A stretch of 37,748 bases of DNA, taken from NCBI GenBank assembly GCA_902592345.1, contig CACJEE010000002.1, positions 1 through 37,748 of the forward strand, in the 5' to 3' direction. The translations under genes were made by a program, and so were the position numbers. This DNA comes from an uncultured Alphaproteobacteria bacterium. GTDB lineage: Bacteria; Pseudomonadota; Alphaproteobacteria; HIMB59; GCA-002718135. Numbering within the stretch: position 1 is the first letter of the stretch; every line of letters begins with the position of its first letter. Shown here piece after piece: positions 1-10,103 of this stretch. The notes beneath the pieces were generated by a model. It did not search any database. It saw only the letters and a list, made by a program, of their open reading frames with translations, and was not told the origin of the DNA.

Positions 1-1362
1 ACTTCAATAAATAAAGAAAACCCTAGTAAAGTTGAATCTAAGGTAAGATCAAAAAACTTTGATGAAATTTACGCAAATTTTGCCAAACAAAAGGCAGAAG
101 AACAAGCTTCTCGTTGTTCTCAATGTGGAGTTCCCTTTTGCCAGGTTCACTGTCCTCTTCATAATAATATTCCTGACTGGTTAAAGCTTACAGCAGAAAA
201 CAGATTAGAGGAAGCATACCATGTTTCTAGCTCAACTAACAACATGCCTGAAATATGTGGGAGAATATGTCCACAAGATCGATTATGCGAAGGCAATTGT
301 GTAATCGAACAATCAGGCCATGGTACTGTAACAATTGGTTCAATTGAAAAATATATTACCGACACAGCTTGGGATAAAGGATGGATAAAAAAAATTGAAC
401 CAACTATTAATAGAGATAAATCTGTTGGAGTAATTGGTGCTGGTCCAGCAGGTTTAGCAGCAGCTGAGGAATTAAGAAAACGTGGTTATAAAATTACAAT
501 TTACGACAGGTATGACAGGGCAGGAGGACTGCTTATTTATGGAATACCAAATTTTAAATTAGAGAAAGAAATTGTTATTAGAAGAACTAAACTTTTAGAA
601 GATAGTGGAGTTGAATTTAAGTTAAATTTTAATGTTGGTGAAGATAAAACTTTTGATGAGTTAAGAAAAATTCATGATGCAATTGTTATTGCTACTGGCG
701 TTTATAAATCAAGAGATATTAATCTTAACGAACAAAATTTTTCAAATGTAGTTCCTGCTTTAAAATATTTAACAGCAAGCAATAAAGTTGGATTAAAAGA
801 TCAGGTTGAAGAATTTGATAGTGGATTACTTAATGCAAATAATAAAAATGTTATCGTAGTAGGTGGTGGTGATACAGCGATGGATTGTGTTAGGACTGCT
901 GTTAGACAGGGAGCTAAAACAGTTAAATGTCTTTACCGTAGAGATAAAAATAATATGCCTGGCTCTCAAAGAGAAGTTGAAAATGCTATTGAAGAGGGTG
1001 TTGATTTTAAATGGCTAACACTTCCAACACTTTACCAAGGAAATGATAAATTAGAAGAAGTAAAAATCGTAAAAATGGAACTTGGTTCTCCAGATGAAAG
1101 TGGTCGAAGAAAACCTGAGATTAAAGAAAATAGTGAAGAGATTTTAAAATCAGACTTGGTTATTGAGGCTCTTGGTTTTGAGCCAGAAAATCTACCAGTG
1201 ATGTTTAATGAATCATCTCTTAATGTAACGAAGTGGGGCACACTTAAAGTAGACTATAAAAATTTAATGACATCTCTTAATGGTGTTTTTGCTGCGGGTG
1301 ATATTGTCAGGGGAGCAAGTTTAGTTGTCTGGGAGGAATTACAAAAAATGATTGTATTCTAG
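1..1362 (+). CDS. gltD: Glutamate synthase small (beta) subunit, 5' end outside the window and 3' end replaced
   Basis: The frame is open from base 1, so the true start lies upstream. The product is the NADPH-dependent glutamate synthase small chain, which passes electrons from NADPH through FAD and Fe-S centres to GltB for ammonia assimilation. Window codons 39, 42, 47 and 51 (CSQCGVPFCQVHC) and 86, 90, 96 and 100 (CGRICPQDRLCEGNC) are the N-terminal [4Fe-4S] cysteines. An FAD-binding GxGxxG (GVIGAGPAGLAA) starts at codon 143 and an NADPH-binding VIVVGGGDTAMD at about codon 284. The C-terminal FAD motif GVFAAGDIVRGASLVVW is present. From about base 1328 the sequence switches into kpsF, so the last nine residues (EELQKMIVF) are foreign and roughly 25 native residues are missing. 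The family is certain; activity of this form is doubtful. Confidence 0.93.
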   Translation, partial: TSINKENPSKVESKVRSKNFDEIYANFAKQKAEEQASRCSQCGVPFCQVHCPLHNNIPDWLKLTAENRLEEAYHVSSSTNNMPEICGRICPQDRLCEGNCVIEQSGHGTVTIGSIEKYITDTAWDKGWIKKIEPTINRDKSVGVIGAGPAGLAAAEELRKRGYKITIYDRYDRAGGLLIYGIPNFKLEKEIVIRRTKLLEDSGVEFKLNFNVGEDKTFDELRKIHDAIVIATGVYKSRDINLNEQNFSNVVPALKYLTASNKVGLKDQVEEFDSGLLNANNKNVIVVGGGDTAMDCVRTAVRQGAKTVKCLYRRDKNNMPGSQREVENAIEEGVDFKWLTLPTLYQGNDKLEEVKIVKMELGSPDESGRRKPEIKENSEEILKSDLVIEALGFEPENLPVMFNESSLNVTKWGTLKVDYKNLMTSLNGVFAAGDIVRGASLVVWEELQKMIVF

Positions 1363-2033
1363 CAATCTCTAACTCAGGAGAAACCTCTGAATTAAATAAT
1401 ATAATAAGTTACTCTAAAAGATTTGATATACCTTTAGTGAGTATTTCAAGTAATGCAAAAAGTTCATTAAATAAAAACTCAACAGTTGGGATAGTTTATA
1501 AAAAACCAATTGAAGCTTGTCCTCATAATCTTGCCCCCACAAGCTCAACCACAGTAATGTTAGTAATAGGGGATTGTATGGCAATGTCACTTTTAGAGCT
1601 CAAAGGTTTTAAAAGTAGTCAATTTAAAAGTTTTCATCCTGGAGGAAATTTAGGTAAGGATTTAAAAAGGGTTGATGAAATAATGCATACTGGTAGCGCT
1701 CTACCATTGTCAAAAGAAAATGAAAAGATGACAAAAGCATTATTAACAATGACAAAAAAAAGTTTTGGTTGTGTTGGGGTAGTAAATAATAATAAAAAAT
1801 TAATAGGAATAATTACAGACGGTGATTTGAGAAGAAATATGAATGACAATCTTTTTAATCTTAAAGCATTAAACCTTATGACAAAAAATCCCTCCACAGG
1901 AAATAAAGATATGCTTGTTGGTGAAGCTTTAAATTTAATGAATAGCAAAAAGATTACTAGTTTATTTATATGTGAAAAAAATAAACCTGTAGGCATTATT
2001 CATATTCATGATTTATTAAGGCTGAGTAGTTAA
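1328..2033 (+). pseudogene. kpsF: Arabinose-5-phosphate isomerase, 3' fragment (duplicate of the intact copy at 5889)
   Basis: This is the last three quarters of kpsF, corresponding to residues 85-318 of the complete copy. It lacks the start and the first part of the SIS domain, including the GVGKSAHIG loop, but keeps the rest of SIS and both CBS domains. Upstream it is fused out of frame to gltD, whose reading stops at 1362. A GTG at 1437 could in principle start a 198-residue product, but this is an ordinary valine codon in the complete gene. It is very unlikely to be an active enzyme. It has not decayed in any other way, which implies a very recent event or an artefact. Confidence 0.9.
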
Positions 2034-2034
2034 A

Positions 2035-2484
2035 TTGAATTTTTTACTTACAATAAATAAAAAACAGCTAATTATTTTTACTTCTTTTTTTATATTTTTA
2101 ATCTTATTTATTTTTATTTTTATTTTTTTAAATAATGAAAAATCAATTACAAAAATAAATAATATAACAACAAATAAATCAGATATAGTTAAACCAAAAT
2201 TTTCTATAAGTGGTAAAGAAAGTGAAATATTTATTACAGCTACAAACGGAAATTTTTTAAGCGAAGAAAAGATTCTTTTAGAAGATAATGTTAAATTTAA
2301 ATCTAAAGATTTTCAGTTAATATCTGATAATGTTATTTTTGACAGAAAAAATCTTATAGCTACAAGTGATAACGAATCTAAATTTTCATCCAAAAACACT
2401 TCTATAATTTCAGCAGGCTTTGATATAACTGAAAATGGTAATATAATTAATTTCAAAGGACAAACAATTTTGAAAATAAAATGA
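2035..2484 (+). CDS. lptC: LPS export system protein LptC (copy 1)
   Basis: This is a 149-residue bitopic inner-membrane protein. It starts with TTG one base after the kpsF stop. One hydrophobic anchor lies at about residues 10-31 and is followed by a periplasmic beta-jellyroll domain of the LptC (DUF1239) type. LptC links the LptBFG transporter to the LptA bridge. The sequence is identical to the copy at 6847. It overlaps lptA by 4 nt (ATGA), as the other copy does. In this location it could only be transcribed by read-through from gltD. Confidence 0.85.
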   Translation: MNFLLTINKKQLIIFTSFFIFLILFIFIFIFLNNEKSITKINNITTNKSDIVKPKFSISGKESEIFITATNGNFLSEEKILLEDNVKFKSKDFQLISDNVIFDRKNLIATSDNESKFSSKNTSIISAGFDITENGNIINFKGQTILKIK

Positions 2485-3254
2485 ATATTGCAAAGTTAAT
2501 AATTTTTTCTTTTATTTTACTATCATTTTCAACTTCTGGAATATCAAGAGAGATAGGCGAAACTGAGATCACCACAGATGATGGGATTGAAGTATTTCAA
2601 AATGAAAAATACTATTTATTAAAAAAAAACGTAACAATTGCTTCAGATGATTTTGAAATAACTTCAGATAGAGTAAAGGCAAATTTTGAAATAGATTTAT
2701 ATGATATTACTTCTCTTGAAACAAAAGGTAACTCAACTTTAAATGCTATAAAATATGGCATTTCTGGAAAAGGCGATGAGATATGGGTTGATATAATATC
2801 AGAGGTAATAATTGTTCTTGGCAAGGATTCATTTTTAAATCTGCAAGAAACAAAAATGCGCTCAAATGGATCAATTAAAGTAAATAATTCGTTAGGCAAC
2901 TTTGAATTAAAAGGTGCTAATTCTAATCTTCAAAATGATGAACTTGATATATATGGTGAATACATAAGTGGAGTTTTTTCAGAATTTGAAGGCAAAAAGG
3001 AGATAAAAAAACTTATTGTAGAGGATGAGAATTTATTAACGATTAATACTGAAAATCTTGAAATGAATGCTAAAAAAGCTGTATATGATGATCAAACAAA
3101 CATTATTGAATTGTTTTCAAAAGTAAAAATTGTAAAAGGGCAAGAAATAATTACTGGTGATTATGGTTATTTTGATACTATTAAAAATTCATATAAAGTA
3201 AAATCGGATAACACATCCAAAGTAAAGGTTACAATTAAAAACTCAAATGAATAA
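2481..3254 (+). CDS. lptA: LPS export protein LptA (copy 1)
   Basis: This is a 257-residue periplasmic OstA/LptA-family protein with an N-terminal signal peptide of about 22 residues (hydrophobic segment AKLIIFSFILLSFSTSG). The remainder is repetitive beta-strand sequence of the jellyroll type, for example KNVTIASDDFEITSDRVKANF-like repeats. LptA polymerises into the periplasmic bridge that carries LPS from LptC to LptD. It is longer than the E. coli protein (185 residues), as is common in Alphaproteobacteria. It is identical to the copy at 7293 and overlaps lptB by 8 nt. Confidence 0.85.
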   Translation: MNIAKLIIFSFILLSFSTSGISREIGETEITTDDGIEVFQNEKYYLLKKNVTIASDDFEITSDRVKANFEIDLYDITSLETKGNSTLNAIKYGISGKGDEIWVDIISEVIIVLGKDSFLNLQETKMRSNGSIKVNNSLGNFELKGANSNLQNDELDIYGEYISGVFSEFEGKKEIKKLIVEDENLLTINTENLEMNAKKAVYDDQTNIIELFSKVKIVKGQEIITGDYGYFDTIKNSYKVKSDNTSKVKVTIKNSNE

Positions 3255-3990
3255 ATTTCAACTTTTAGATGATGGATTAATAGTAAATAAAATTTCCAAA
3301 TCCTATGGAAATAAAAAAGTTGTTAGAGATATAAGCATATCAATAAATAGAGGTGAAATTGTTGGCTTACTTGGCCCAAATGGCGCAGGCAAAACTACAA
3401 CATTTTATATGATTGTGGGTTTGGTAAAGCCAGATACCGGCTCAATCGTTTTAGATAAGATTGAAATTTCTAAAATGCCTATTTATTCAAGAGGGCTTCA
3501 AGGTATTAGTTATTTACCACAAGAACCATCAATTTTTAGAGGTATGAATGTTGAAGATAACTTGCTAGCAATAATTGAAATTGTAGAAAAAGATCAAAAC
3601 AAGCAAAATATAATATTGCAAAGCTTGCTAAACGAATTTGATATTAATCATGTCAGAAAATCTAAATCAATAGTTCTTTCAGGAGGTGAAAGGCGTAGAT
3701 TAGAAATTGCAAGAACATTAGCTTCAAGACCAAAATACCTTCTTCTAGATGAGCCTTTAACTGGAATTGATCCAGTCTCAATAGAAGAGATAAAAATAAT
3801 AATAAAAAAATTAAAACAAAAAAATATTGGTGTGTTAATTACGGATCATAACGTAAGAGAAACACTAAAAATAGTTGATAAAGTTTATATTGTAAACGAA
3901 GGAATGATATTTTTCACTGGGAATCCTAATGAAGCCATCTCTGACGACAGAATAAAGAAATTTTATCTTGGTAGCGATTTTTCAATTTAA
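3247..3990 (+). CDS. lptB: LPS export ABC transporter ATP-binding protein LptB (copy 1)
   Basis: This 247-residue cytoplasmic ABC ATPase powers LPS extraction with LptF/LptG. It has a Walker A (GLLGPNGAGKTT, about residue 40), a signature motif (LSGGERRRLEIARTLA), a Walker B with D-loop (YLLLDEPLTGIDP) and a switch histidine (ITDHNVRETL). The GERRR signature and the TDHNVRETL motif are typical of LptB rather than of general ABC importers. It is identical to the copy at 8059. The next start (aroA) follows 2 nt after the stop. Confidence 0.95.
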   Translation: MNKFQLLDDGLIVNKISKSYGNKKVVRDISISINRGEIVGLLGPNGAGKTTTFYMIVGLVKPDTGSIVLDKIEISKMPIYSRGLQGISYLPQEPSIFRGMNVEDNLLAIIEIVEKDQNKQNIILQSLLNEFDINHVRKSKSIVLSGGERRRLEIARTLASRPKYLLLDEPLTGIDPVSIEEIKIIIKKLKQKNIGVLITDHNVRETLKIVDKVYIVNEGMIFFTGNPNEAISDDRIKKFYLGSDFSI

Positions 3991-3992
3991 CT

Positions 3993-4793
3993 ATGTTCAG
4001 TGAACAAACTAAGATTGGCATTAATGGTTCTATTGAAATTCCAGGTGACAAATCAATATCACATAGATCAATTATAATTCCTTCAATTTCAAGTGGCATT
4101 TGTGAAATTTCAAATATTTTAAAATCAGACGATGTTCTTCGCACCATGAATGCGTTTAAAGAAATGGGCGTCGAGATAAAAGAAGAAAACAAAAAAATAA
4201 TTATAAATGGAAAAGGTTTAGGGTCTCTTAAAAAGCCCAACAAAGAGATATATCTTGGAAATTCTGGTACGAGTGCGAGATTATTAACAGGTTTATTATC
4301 TTCTCAGAATTTTGAATCAGTTTTAACTGGAGATAAGTCCCTCTCGTCAAGACCAATGAAAAGAATTACAAATCCTTTATCTGAAATGGGTGCTGAGATT
4401 GTAGCTCAAAATGGAAAATTACCATTACATATCAAGGGTAAAGTTTTAAATAATTGCAAAATAGAAATTGACATACCATCAGCTCAAATTAAATCAGGTT
4501 TAATATTAGCGGCATTAAATACAGAGGGAACTAGTTATATTAATGAAAAACATATTACGAGAGATCATACTGAGATAATGCTTGAAACATTTGGTGCTGA
4601 TATTGAAACAAAAAAAAATGTGGATTCTTCTCAAATTATAATAAATGGTAAAAAAAACCTTACTCCAAAAAATATTGATGTGCCTGCCGATTTATCAAGC
4701 AGTGCATTTTTCATTGTTGCAGCATTAATAAACAAAAATTCAAATATCACTCTAGAAAATAACACTTGGCCTAATTACTACAGAATTCTGTAA
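3993..4793 (+). pseudogene. aroA: 3-phosphoshikimate 1-carboxyvinyltransferase, 5' fragment (duplicate)
   Basis: The first 256 residues are identical to the intact AroA at 8805. The frame then crosses the junction at 4761 and reads ten foreign residues antisense to the NDUFA9-like gene before stopping. It keeps the N-terminal substrate loops GDKSISHR and GNSGTSARLLTG but has lost the second half of the alpha/beta inside-out barrel, with the catalytic DE and ESDR motifs. EPSP synthase needs both domains, so this copy cannot be functional. Confidence 0.93.
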
Positions 4794-5213
4794 TTTATTT
4801 AATATTTGATCTTCTGTTTTTGAAATAATTTCATTACGAAAAGTTGATCTATTTTCAGTGCCTAGACCAGAGAAAAAAATGAATCTTTTAATTGAAGTTG
4901 ATCGTTTTAACTCATTTATTAGCTCAGAATTAAAATCTAAAATGGACCTTTTTAATTCTGATTTATTTGAAGACCAGGAAGTTTTTAAATTAATACAGAT
5001 ATCTACATTATTAAATAAAGTAAGTAGTTTTGTGTTTTTTAATGAGCTAAAGTGAAAAGGAACTATTTGACCAAATGAACCTAGAAGTCTTAAATTAGCT
5101 TCGTTTATTTGTTTTTGATAAGGAACAATAACTTTGAAACCCTCTTTTGCAAATCTTCTAATTAGATTTTTTCCTACGTATCCCGAGCCACCAAATATAA
5201 TTATTGATTTCAT
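4752..5213 (-). pseudogene. NDUFA9-like NAD(P)-binding complex I-associated protein, N-terminal half only
   Basis: The ATG at 5213 starts MKSIIIFGGSGYVGKNLIRR, a Rossmann GxxGxxG nucleotide-binding fold of the atypical short-chain dehydrogenase family seen in NDUFA9-like complex I subunits. The frame extends 18 codons further upstream, but those residues do not look like the family. The protein runs about 150 residues to RPSVIF, where relatives continue with G and a substrate domain (normal total about 320 residues). Here a TAG from the duplicated aroA sequence ends it. It is divergent from rnd with a 65-bp gap. In Alphaproteobacteria, as I recall, this gene often lies near gltBD and uppP. 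That fits the idea that the interval between gltD and this gene was lost. Confidence 0.75.
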
Positions 5214-5278
5214 GATTTTTATAGAATTTGATGCTATAACAACTAAATTATTTGAAATAAAGAACAAATAAATTGCAA

Positions 5279-5887
5279 ATGAAAATAAAATACTATGAAA
5301 ATGATTTACCTGAAAATATAGATTTAGGGGATATTATTGCTATTGATACAGAAACTATGGGATTAAATCCTTCAAGAGATAAGTTGTGCTTGATACAAAT
5401 TTCATCAGGAAATAAAACTTGTCATTTGGTTAAAATATTAGATTTAAGAAAAAAACCAAAAAATCTTATAAAGCTGCTTAAAAATAATAAAATTACAAAG
5501 ATTTTTCATTACGCTAGATTTGATGTTGCAATTATAAAACATGCTTTCAAAATAGACATCAAGAATATTTATTGCACAAAAATTGCATCCAAGCTTGTTA
5601 GAACTTATACTGATAAACATGGATACAAAGATCTTTGTAAAGAATTATTGAATGAAACAATTTCAAAAGCAGAACAATCATCAGATTGGGGTGGAAAACT
5701 TTCAAAAGATCAAAAAAAATATGCAGCAACTGATGTGTTGCATCTTCATAAAATAAAAAATAAATTAGATATTATGCTGAAGAGAGAAAAAAGAACACAA
5801 ATCGCTAATGCTTGTTTTGAATTTATAAACTATCGAACTGATCTAGATTTGCATGGTTGGCATGATGTAGATATATTTAAGCATTAA
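5279..5887 (+). CDS. rnd: Ribonuclease D-like 3'-5' exonuclease
   Basis: This is a DEDDy-family 3'-5' exoribonuclease of about 202 residues. It is the short alphaproteobacterial form that lacks the C-terminal HRDC domains of E. coli RNase D. The catalytic motifs are all visible: AIDTETMGL (D and E), FHYARFDVAII (D) and YAATDVLHLHKI (Y-x3-D). It probably trims the 3' ends of tRNA or other small RNAs. I chose the ATG at 5279; an in-frame TTG at 5273 would add two residues. It is the first gene of the long plus-strand cluster and kpsF follows at once. Confidence 0.88.
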   Translation: MKIKYYENDLPENIDLGDIIAIDTETMGLNPSRDKLCLIQISSGNKTCHLVKILDLRKKPKNLIKLLKNNKITKIFHYARFDVAIIKHAFKIDIKNIYCTKIASKLVRTYTDKHGYKDLCKELLNETISKAEQSSDWGGKLSKDQKKYAATDVLHLHKIKNKLDIMLKREKRTQIANACFEFINYRTDLDLHGWHDVDIFKH

Positions 5888-5888
5888 A

Positions 5889-6845
5889 ATGAACAAATCC
5901 AAAATTATTAACAGGGCAAAAAAAACTCTCTCTACAGAAGTAAAAGAGTTAAAAAATTTATCAAAAATTTTTAATAATAATTTTTATAAAGCTGTTATTC
6001 TTCTGAGCAAAGTTAAAGGTAGAGTAATAGTTACTGGTGTTGGAAAAAGTGCTCATATTGGGAATAAAATTTCAGCTACATTAGCTTCGACTGGAACACC
6101 CTCATATTTAATTCATGCAACAGAAGCAAGCCATGGTGATCTGGGAGGAATTACAAAAAATGATTGTATTCTAGCAATCTCTAACTCAGGAGAAACCTCT
6201 GAATTAAATAATATAATAAGTTACTCTAAAAGATTTGATATACCTTTAGTGAGTATTTCAAGTAATGCAAAAAGTTCATTAAATAAAAACTCAACAGTTG
6301 GGATAGTTTATAAAAAACCAATTGAAGCTTGTCCTCATAATCTTGCCCCCACAAGCTCAACCACAGTAATGTTAGTAATAGGGGATTGTATGGCAATGTC
6401 ACTTTTAGAGCTCAAAGGTTTTAAAAGTAGTCAATTTAAAAGTTTTCATCCTGGAGGAAATTTAGGTAAGGATTTAAAAAGGGTTGATGAAATAATGCAT
6501 ACTGGTAGCGCTCTACCATTGTCAAAAGAAAATGAAAAGATGACAAAAGCATTATTAACAATGACAAAAAAAAGTTTTGGTTGTGTTGGGGTAGTAAATA
6601 ATAATAAAAAATTAATAGGAATAATTACAGACGGTGATTTGAGAAGAAATATGAATGACAATCTTTTTAATCTTAAAGCATTAAACCTTATGACAAAAAA
6701 TCCCTCCACAGGAAATAAAGATATGCTTGTTGGTGAAGCTTTAAATTTAATGAATAGCAAAAAGATTACTAGTTTATTTATATGTGAAAAAAATAAACCT
6801 GTAGGCATTATTCATATTCATGATTTATTAAGGCTGAGTAGTTAA
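5889..6845 (+). CDS. kpsF: Arabinose-5-phosphate isomerase (intact copy)
   Basis: This 318-residue enzyme converts D-ribulose-5-phosphate to D-arabinose-5-phosphate, the first committed step of Kdo (LPS core) synthesis. It has a SIS sugar-isomerase domain at about residues 40-175, with the phosphate loop GVGKSAHIGNK, SHGDLGG and SNSGETSEL. Two CBS domains follow (about 205-318, ending GIIHIHDLLR). The length is normal for the family. The start ATG lies 1 nt after the rnd stop. Residues 85 onwards fall in the duplicated segment. It sits directly before lptC-lptA-lptB, so Kdo precursor supply and LPS export are co-transcribed. Confidence 0.96.
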   Translation: MNKSKIINRAKKTLSTEVKELKNLSKIFNNNFYKAVILLSKVKGRVIVTGVGKSAHIGNKISATLASTGTPSYLIHATEASHGDLGGITKNDCILAISNSGETSELNNIISYSKRFDIPLVSISSNAKSSLNKNSTVGIVYKKPIEACPHNLAPTSSTTVMLVIGDCMAMSLLELKGFKSSQFKSFHPGGNLGKDLKRVDEIMHTGSALPLSKENEKMTKALLTMTKKSFGCVGVVNNNKKLIGIITDGDLRRNMNDNLFNLKALNLMTKNPSTGNKDMLVGEALNLMNSKKITSLFICEKNKPVGIIHIHDLLRLSS

Positions 6846-6846
6846 A

Positions 6847-7296
6847 TTGAATTTTTTACTTACAATAAATAAAAAACAGCTAATTATTTTTACTTCTTTT
6901 TTTATATTTTTAATCTTATTTATTTTTATTTTTATTTTTTTAAATAATGAAAAATCAATTACAAAAATAAATAATATAACAACAAATAAATCAGATATAG
7001 TTAAACCAAAATTTTCTATAAGTGGTAAAGAAAGTGAAATATTTATTACAGCTACAAACGGAAATTTTTTAAGCGAAGAAAAGATTCTTTTAGAAGATAA
7101 TGTTAAATTTAAATCTAAAGATTTTCAGTTAATATCTGATAATGTTATTTTTGACAGAAAAAATCTTATAGCTACAAGTGATAACGAATCTAAATTTTCA
7201 TCCAAAAACACTTCTATAATTTCAGCAGGCTTTGATATAACTGAAAATGGTAATATAATTAATTTCAAAGGACAAACAATTTTGAAAATAAAATGA
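6847..7296 (+). CDS. lptC: LPS export system protein LptC (copy 2, native context)
   Basis: This 149-residue protein has a TTG start one base after the kpsF stop. It has one N-terminal membrane anchor (a phenylalanine/isoleucine-rich segment, about residues 10-31) and a periplasmic domain. The repeated pattern in the second half (EEKILLEDNVKFKSKDFQLISD) resembles the strands of the LptA/LptC jellyroll. It couples the LptBFG ATPase complex to the LptA bridge. Sequence conservation of LptC is low, so the assignment rests on topology plus position between kpsF and lptA. It has a 4-nt overlap with lptA. Confidence 0.87.
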   Translation: MNFLLTINKKQLIIFTSFFIFLILFIFIFIFLNNEKSITKINNITTNKSDIVKPKFSISGKESEIFITATNGNFLSEEKILLEDNVKFKSKDFQLISDNVIFDRKNLIATSDNESKFSSKNTSIISAGFDITENGNIINFKGQTILKIK

Positions 7297-8066
7297 ATAT
7301 TGCAAAGTTAATAATTTTTTCTTTTATTTTACTATCATTTTCAACTTCTGGAATATCAAGAGAGATAGGCGAAACTGAGATCACCACAGATGATGGGATT
7401 GAAGTATTTCAAAATGAAAAATACTATTTATTAAAAAAAAACGTAACAATTGCTTCAGATGATTTTGAAATAACTTCAGATAGAGTAAAGGCAAATTTTG
7501 AAATAGATTTATATGATATTACTTCTCTTGAAACAAAAGGTAACTCAACTTTAAATGCTATAAAATATGGCATTTCTGGAAAAGGCGATGAGATATGGGT
7601 TGATATAATATCAGAGGTAATAATTGTTCTTGGCAAGGATTCATTTTTAAATCTGCAAGAAACAAAAATGCGCTCAAATGGATCAATTAAAGTAAATAAT
7701 TCGTTAGGCAACTTTGAATTAAAAGGTGCTAATTCTAATCTTCAAAATGATGAACTTGATATATATGGTGAATACATAAGTGGAGTTTTTTCAGAATTTG
7801 AAGGCAAAAAGGAGATAAAAAAACTTATTGTAGAGGATGAGAATTTATTAACGATTAATACTGAAAATCTTGAAATGAATGCTAAAAAAGCTGTATATGA
7901 TGATCAAACAAACATTATTGAATTGTTTTCAAAAGTAAAAATTGTAAAAGGGCAAGAAATAATTACTGGTGATTATGGTTATTTTGATACTATTAAAAAT
8001 TCATATAAAGTAAAATCGGATAACACATCCAAAGTAAAGGTTACAATTAAAAACTCAAATGAATAA
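7293..8066 (+). CDS. lptA: LPS export protein LptA (copy 2, native context)
   Basis: This is a 257-residue exported OstA-family protein: signal peptide at residues 1-22, then beta-rich repeats that form the periplasmic LPS slide. About 110 residues beyond the first jellyroll suggest a longer protein than in enterobacteria. It is joined to lptC by an ATGA overlap and to lptB by an 8-nt overlap, which suggests translational coupling within the export operon. Confidence 0.87.
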   Translation: MNIAKLIIFSFILLSFSTSGISREIGETEITTDDGIEVFQNEKYYLLKKNVTIASDDFEITSDRVKANFEIDLYDITSLETKGNSTLNAIKYGISGKGDEIWVDIISEVIIVLGKDSFLNLQETKMRSNGSIKVNNSLGNFELKGANSNLQNDELDIYGEYISGVFSEFEGKKEIKKLIVEDENLLTINTENLEMNAKKAVYDDQTNIIELFSKVKIVKGQEIITGDYGYFDTIKNSYKVKSDNTSKVKVTIKNSNE

Positions 8067-8802
8067 ATTTCAACTTTTAGATGATGGATTAATAGTAAAT
8101 AAAATTTCCAAATCCTATGGAAATAAAAAAGTTGTTAGAGATATAAGCATATCAATAAATAGAGGTGAAATTGTTGGCTTACTTGGCCCAAATGGCGCAG
8201 GCAAAACTACAACATTTTATATGATTGTGGGTTTGGTAAAGCCAGATACCGGCTCAATCGTTTTAGATAAGATTGAAATTTCTAAAATGCCTATTTATTC
8301 AAGAGGGCTTCAAGGTATTAGTTATTTACCACAAGAACCATCAATTTTTAGAGGTATGAATGTTGAAGATAACTTGCTAGCAATAATTGAAATTGTAGAA
8401 AAAGATCAAAACAAGCAAAATATAATATTGCAAAGCTTGCTAAACGAATTTGATATTAATCATGTCAGAAAATCTAAATCAATAGTTCTTTCAGGAGGTG
8501 AAAGGCGTAGATTAGAAATTGCAAGAACATTAGCTTCAAGACCAAAATACCTTCTTCTAGATGAGCCTTTAACTGGAATTGATCCAGTCTCAATAGAAGA
8601 GATAAAAATAATAATAAAAAAATTAAAACAAAAAAATATTGGTGTGTTAATTACGGATCATAACGTAAGAGAAACACTAAAAATAGTTGATAAAGTTTAT
8701 ATTGTAAACGAAGGAATGATATTTTTCACTGGGAATCCTAATGAAGCCATCTCTGACGACAGAATAAAGAAATTTTATCTTGGTAGCGATTTTTCAATTT
8801 AA
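8059..8802 (+). CDS. lptB: LPS export ABC transporter ATP-binding protein LptB (copy 2, native context)
   Basis: This 247-residue ABC ATPase has a Walker A (GPNGAGKTT), a Q-loop (YLPQEPSIFRG), a signature (LSGGERRRLEIA), a Walker B (LLLDEPLTGIDP) and an H-loop (ITDHNVRETL). It energises LPS movement from the inner membrane. In many Alphaproteobacteria lptB is followed by rpoN, hpf/raiA and ptsN. Here aroA begins 2 nt after its stop. The permeases LptF and LptG are not in the window. Confidence 0.96.
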   Translation: MNKFQLLDDGLIVNKISKSYGNKKVVRDISISINRGEIVGLLGPNGAGKTTTFYMIVGLVKPDTGSIVLDKIEISKMPIYSRGLQGISYLPQEPSIFRGMNVEDNLLAIIEIVEKDQNKQNIILQSLLNEFDINHVRKSKSIVLSGGERRRLEIARTLASRPKYLLLDEPLTGIDPVSIEEIKIIIKKLKQKNIGVLITDHNVRETLKIVDKVYIVNEGMIFFTGNPNEAISDDRIKKFYLGSDFSI

Positions 8803-8804
8803 CT

Positions 8805-10103
8805 ATGTTCAGTGAACAAACTAAGATTGGCATTAATGGTTCTATTGAAATTCCAGGTGACAAATCAATATCACATAGATCAATTATAATTCCTTCAATT
8901 TCAAGTGGCATTTGTGAAATTTCAAATATTTTAAAATCAGACGATGTTCTTCGCACCATGAATGCGTTTAAAGAAATGGGCGTCGAGATAAAAGAAGAAA
9001 ACAAAAAAATAATTATAAATGGAAAAGGTTTAGGGTCTCTTAAAAAGCCCAACAAAGAGATATATCTTGGAAATTCTGGTACGAGTGCGAGATTATTAAC
9101 AGGTTTATTATCTTCTCAGAATTTTGAATCAGTTTTAACTGGAGATAAGTCCCTCTCGTCAAGACCAATGAAAAGAATTACAAATCCTTTATCTGAAATG
9201 GGTGCTGAGATTGTAGCTCAAAATGGAAAATTACCATTACATATCAAGGGTAAAGTTTTAAATAATTGCAAAATAGAAATTGACATACCATCAGCTCAAA
9301 TTAAATCAGGTTTAATATTAGCGGCATTAAATACAGAGGGAACTAGTTATATTAATGAAAAACATATTACGAGAGATCATACTGAGATAATGCTTGAAAC
9401 ATTTGGTGCTGATATTGAAACAAAAAAAAATGTGGATTCTTCTCAAATTATAATAAATGGTAAAAAAAACCTTACTCCAAAAAATATTGATGTGCCTGCC
9501 GATTTATCAAGCAGTGCATTTTTCATTGTTGCAGCATTAATAAACAAAAATTCAAATATCACTCTAGAAAATATAAATATTAATCCGACAAGAAGCGGAC
9601 TCTTAATTGCTCTAGAAAGGATGGGTGCAAACATAAACATATTTAATCAAAAAAATAGAGCTGGTGAAATTGTTGCGAACATAAATGTAAAATCTTCAGA
9701 ACTGAATGGATGTGAGTTAGATGAACAAATGGCTAAGTTAATGATAGATGAGTTCCCAATCTTGTCCATTGCAGCATCGCAAGCAAATTCGCCTAGTTAT
9801 TTTAAAGGTTTAGATGAATTAAGGATAAAAGAAAGTGATAGACTAGAATTAATAAATGATAATTTAAACAGATGTGGGCATTATAGTAAAATTAAAAATA
9901 ATGATCTATTCATTGATCCTACAAAAAATAAACAAATTATAAATTCTGCAATAAGAACAGATTTTGATCACAGAATAGCAATGTCTTTTGCTGTGTTAGG
10001 ATCAAAAATCGGAAAGCTTCAAATCAATGAATCAGATTCGATAAATACTAGTTTTCCATCTTTTAAAGAACAATTTAATAGAGCTGGTGGCAATTTAATT
10101 TGA
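8805..10103 (+). CDS. aroA: 3-phosphoshikimate 1-carboxyvinyltransferase (EPSP synthase), intact
   Basis: This 432-residue shikimate-pathway enzyme joins PEP to shikimate-3-phosphate. Family motifs run in order: GDKSISHRSII near the N-terminus, GNSGTSARLLTGLL, GDKSLSSRPM, the catalytic stretch DEFPILSIAA, then LDELRIKESDRL and DHRIAMSFAVLG. The length is normal for the bacterial enzyme. Residues 1-256 lie in the duplicated segment and the remainder is unique. The TGA stop overlaps the TTG start of cmk by 4 nt. Confidence 0.97.
   Translation: MFSEQTKIGINGSIEIPGDKSISHRSIIIPSISSGICEISNILKSDDVLRTMNAFKEMGVEIKEENKKIIINGKGLGSLKKPNKEIYLGNSGTSARLLTGLLSSQNFESVLTGDKSLSSRPMKRITNPLSEMGAEIVAQNGKLPLHIKGKVLNNCKIEIDIPSAQIKSGLILAALNTEGTSYINEKHITRDHTEIMLETFGADIETKKNVDSSQIIINGKKNLTPKNIDVPADLSSSAFFIVAALINKNSNITLENININPTRSGLLIALERMGANINIFNQKNRAGEIVANINVKSSELNGCELDEQMAKLMIDEFPILSIAASQANSPSYFKGLDELRIKESDRLELINDNLNRCGHYSKIKNNDLFIDPTKNKQIINSAIRTDFDHRIAMSFAVLGSKIGKLQINESDSINTSFPSFKEQFNRAGGNLI

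Follow-up and report, generated by a model that had tools for sequence, protein, structure and literature searches.

A perfect 3.4-kb repeat between two cut genes at a contig end of an alphaproteobacterial draft genome: a probable amplification chimera

Does a perfect duplication of several kilobases between two broken genes reflect a rearranged chromosome, or did it arise while the DNA was amplified and assembled? The question is raised by a stretch of 37,748 nucleotides (the window), which forms bases 1-37,748 of contig C2 (116,076 bp) in the draft genome of an uncultured alphaproteobacterium (1,331,731 bases, 62 contigs, 75.97% complete, 0.28% contaminated). An exact maximal repeat joins positions 1328-4761 and 6140-9573, 3,434 bp at an offset of 4,812 with 100% identity and no mismatch, just as an earlier sequence-only reading had described it, and no full-length copy other than these two was found in the draft genome. 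Three origins were offered there: a recent template-switch rearrangement in the cell, a deletion allele and a tandem-duplication allele joined by the assembler, and an amplification chimera. The evidence favours the last of them. The repeat is very probably an amplification chimera whose shared segment was written twice by the assembler, and not a biological feature, a verdict which is strongly supported but not proved.

Family models assign the genes of the region to gltD, an NDUFA9-like gene, an rnd-like gene, kpsF, lptC, lptA, lptB and aroA. According to self-comparison and these models, copy 1 of the repeat (1328-4761, plus strand) comprises the 3' part of kpsF, lptC, lptA, lptB and the 5' part of aroA. 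As had been claimed, it lies between two cut genes. On its left is a piece of gltD (1-1327, plus strand; TIGR01318), the gene of the glutamate synthase small subunit, cut on one side by the contig end and on the other by junction 1 (1327/1328); window base 1 is the end of contig C2 and lies 1.3 kb from this junction. On its right, beyond junction 2 (4761/4762), is the 5' half of the NDUFA9-like gene of the epimerase family (4762-5213, minus strand; PF01370), which is full-length with 298 aa in L044, the locus of the nearest relative. The cut protein (window 4752-5213, 153 aa) falls into a 90% cluster, P0121, of seven members. An rnd-like 3'-5' exonuclease of 204 aa (5273-5887, plus strand; PF01612) follows in its native position, as judged from its equal length in L044. 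It possesses the exonuclease domain only, and its score of 91.9 is below the NCBIfam ribonuclease D cut-off of 298.95. The start of the intact kpsF (5889-6139, plus strand; family models) leads into copy 2 (6140-9573, plus strand), for which self-comparison and the relatives' loci show the native operon context, an uninterrupted run of rnd, kpsF, lptC, lptA, lptB and aroA; the earlier statement that this copy sits in an intact operon therefore holds. The idea that the junctions hold a structural RNA or a tRNA was rejected, since Rfam models gave nothing at gathering score and the window has no tRNA; an inverted repeat at the joins was rejected likewise, none of at least 40 bp being present in the window.

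The native order was taken from related genomes. The unique stretch 4762-6139 was used as query against 101 genomes of the genus including the own one and matched in 81, several of them only by short chance pieces; 14 loci were taken from the matching genomes, ten of them for the best scores and four in addition. L044 is 95-96% identical to the window over the aligned parts. In all 14 loci gltD and the markers of the rnd-kpsF side are on opposite strands, with L057 holding gltD and the NDUFA9-like gene only and L050 only 170 bp of gltD, whereas in the window both are on the same strand. The gltD piece aligns to L044 from 4319 down to 2987 on the opposite strand; about 22 codons of its 5' end are missing off the contig (window position 1 corresponds to L044 4319, the gene start to 4385). 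The gene after gltD in L044 is gltB; uppP, which the earlier reading had put there with a question mark, does not follow it.

Because gltD is flipped relative to the relatives, junction 1 is an inverted join over about 3.3 kb and not a forward skip. Its partners are positions 2987 and 6276 of L044 on opposite strands, and a 6-bp overlap, TCTGGG (1328-1333, plus strand), is common to gltD and kpsF. The continuation of gltD across this point was taken from L044, since the own genome is without the native one. Junction 2 is a direct backward join with a 6-bp overlap, AAAATA (4756-4761, plus strand), common to aroA and the NDUFA9-like gene; for the same reason its NDUFA9-like side was taken from the relatives L044 and L045. 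The two template switches proposed earlier are thus half right: the forward step from gltD into kpsF is contradicted by the orientation of gltD in all 14 loci, and the same-strand step from aroA back into the NDUFA9-like gene fits. Junction 2 alone is the join expected if a unit of 4,812 bp were repeated in tandem. A tandem duplication of two complete units head to tail was nevertheless rejected, as the first unit is cut at the inverted join inside kpsF.

De Bruijn assemblers join sequences by words far longer than 6 bp. Overlaps of this length cannot carry an assembler join, so both joins probably existed in the sequenced molecules. This speaks against a pure assembler misjoin made without any chimeric molecule, as does the absence of any N run from the window, whose letters are A, C, G and T only; such a misjoin would fit the neighbouring contig end and unassembled sequence, and is very unlikely. 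Among random joins in the relative's locus (about 200,000 pairs per orientation), overlaps of at least 6 bp are equally rare for inverted and direct pairs, at 0.42% each. That both joins have such overlaps, against 0.4% of random joins, favours an amplification chimera.

Chimeras of this kind are described for multiple displacement amplification (MDA). For MDA of one E. coli cell, Lasken and Stockwell (2007, PMC1855051) give 475 chimeras, 406 of them inverted, and 337 of these 406 joined sites within 10 kb; complementary overlaps of at least 2 bp, and up to 21, were seen in 76.8%. The typical chimera is an inverted join of sites less than 10 kb apart that share a short complementary stretch. 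Direct joins made up 69 of the 475, and those within 10 kb 11 of the 475 (PMC1855051). Junction 1 resembles the inverted class as it appears there: it is inverted, spans less than 10 kb, has a short overlap and has lost sequence nearby, and the 6 bp at each join lie within the range of 2-21 nt. Unlike these inverted chimeras, the window has a second join 3.4 kb further on which is direct, a rare type, and this counts against the assignment.

The same overlaps fit a real and recent rearrangement in the cell, in which an inverted template switch of the FoSTeS/MMBIR type would have disrupted both gltD and the NDUFA9-like gene and given kpsF-aroA a second copy. Microhomology is found at both joins and the switches cover a few kilobases, as is familiar for FoSTeS/MMBIR, and molecules with these joins seem to have existed. 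FoSTeS/MMBIR would, however, require the joins to lie in a living chromosome. The structure is absent from the 14 relatives' loci. All 14 relatives searched for the kpsF-aroA segment have it, either at a single place or as fragments of one copy, and none shows a second copy: 11 gave a single full or nearly full match, and in the other three it is split into two neighbouring pieces of one copy (G059), distributed over two contigs (G080) or cut by a contig end (G019).

The public proteins agree with this. Of the best 120 GltD relatives of at least 8,000 scored, none aligned beyond query residue 363, where the chimeric tail starts, and 119 continued for at least 20 residues of their own; the closest GltD among the matches listed is intact and 98.6% identical to the window piece. 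With the intact NDUFA9-like protein of L044 as query, all of the best 120 relatives of 1,585 had 297-298 aa, a result to which the full-length query itself contributes by favouring full-length matches, and one intact public protein among these best 120 of 1,585 is 99.3% identical to the window fragment over 150 residues. It had been argued that uninterrupted gltD and NDUFA9-like genes in related assemblies of the same population would mark the structure as an artefact; such genes were found in other species of the genus and as near-identical public proteins. These intact proteins, and the single kpsF-aroA in 14 of 14 relatives, favour an amplification chimera. An exact search for junction 1 in the genome contig collection, which may omit the own record, gave no match. 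All relatives compared belong to other species, which counts against certainty of an artefact and leaves room for a private real rearrangement. Such a rearrangement also gives no reason for the missing flanks described below and for the contig end beside the join, an argument weakened by the gaps that a draft of 76% completeness has in any case. Taken together, it is highly improbable; if true, a template-switch event would have been caught in one alphaproteobacterium with a small genome.

What the draft lacks is informative as well. With L044 as probe, the own genome contains gltB up to native position 2013, at the end of contig C29. This contig (L061 1-3623) breaks off within gltB, leaving a gap of 973 bp to the native start of the gltD piece. 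Native 2014-2986 (973 bp) was not found in the own draft by this probe; native 2987-4319, the gltD piece, is found in the draft in C2 only and flipped; native 4320-4891 (572 bp) was again not found, and the remainder of C2 follows. The probe matched seven of seven relatives: G066 (the probe source) and five more align almost end to end, and in G051 the match starts at a contig end. Since the flanks are absent from the own draft and present in the relatives, the native stretch of 2.9 kb did not enter the assembly, and the part carried by the chimera is all that is left. The inversion of gltD relative to 14 of 14 loci, the nearby contig end, the absent native flanks and the end of C29 in gltB all favour an amplification chimera.

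A possible course of events can be outlined for the amplification chimera. The DNA of one cell would have been amplified with phi29, by MDA or its relative WGA-X, and then assembled from short reads. A strand copying gltD may have become detached, its 3' end TCTGGG re-annealing to kpsF DNA of opposite polarity about 3.3 kb away, and would have been extended through lptCAB into aroA, giving the inverted junction 1. A second switch at AAAATA, on the same or another molecule, would have led from aroA about 4.8 kb back into the NDUFA9-like gene and produced the direct junction 2. As the native gltB-gltD-NDUFA9 stretch of 2.9 kb was not assembled, the gltD piece would come from the chimera alone. 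In an assembly graph built from short reads, a 3.4-kb repeat collapses into a single segment. The segment from kpsF to aroA would then have two entries, gltD and the start of kpsF, and two exits, the NDUFA9-like gene and the rest of aroA. Because the first exit returns to the second entry, a single path uses all entries and exits, and this path is the observed contig with the segment placed twice. If both copies were written from one graph node, their perfect identity is uninformative about age. No published source for such loop resolution in SPAdes was found among the matches listed.

The perfect identity bears also on a third rival, by which the sequence would be a consensus of several strains from a metagenome bin or a mixed culture with their alleles joined. 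Three of the 14 named related loci are plainly from metagenome bins, which is in its favour. However, a simple deletion allele cannot give the inverted junction 1, the copies are without strain difference over 3,434 bp and the contamination estimate is 0.28%, so that this explanation is very improbable. The other 11 of the 14 names are of single-cell style, ten of them beginning with AG- or AH- and one being a SAG. The AG- and AH- names are presumably those of single cells from one facility; four of these ten records are titled 'MAG:', which counts against the single-cell reading. The own genome may likewise come from a single cell and may have been made by the GORG-Tropics workflow. For the latter, Section 5 of PMC11247762 gives a benchmark in which misassemblies average 1.5 per 100 kb, which by our arithmetic corresponds to about 0.6 per window of 37,748 nucleotides. 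The benchmark, the MDA chimera figures (PMC1855051) and the 11 of 14 names of single-cell style favour an amplification chimera.

If the contig is taken at face value, gltD and the NDUFA9-like gene would falsely seem to be lost and lptCAB to be duplicated. The locus may serve as a warning case: where a perfect multi-kilobase duplication lies between cut genes at the contig end of a possibly single-cell draft, an amplification chimera should be suspected first.

A search of 16 stretches of the own genome (320,951 bases, at least 90% identity) gave no further repeat longer than 28 bp. Chimeras of this kind are therefore infrequent in its contigs, which counts against the preferred reading. Self-comparison of 34 stretches of the relatives (582,654 bases) gave two repeats of at least 40 bp. 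At the start of contig C3 of the related genome G067 (L099), bases 1-66 are an exact inverted copy of 1157-1222, 1.1 kb inside; this has the look of a further amplification chimera, of the fold-back kind and again at the end of a contig, and favours the same origin for the repeat in the window. The second, in contig C1 of G060 (L108), is a direct repeat of 118 bp (9189-9306 and 9297-9414, spacing 108 bp, 100% identical) and probably an ordinary tandem repeat.
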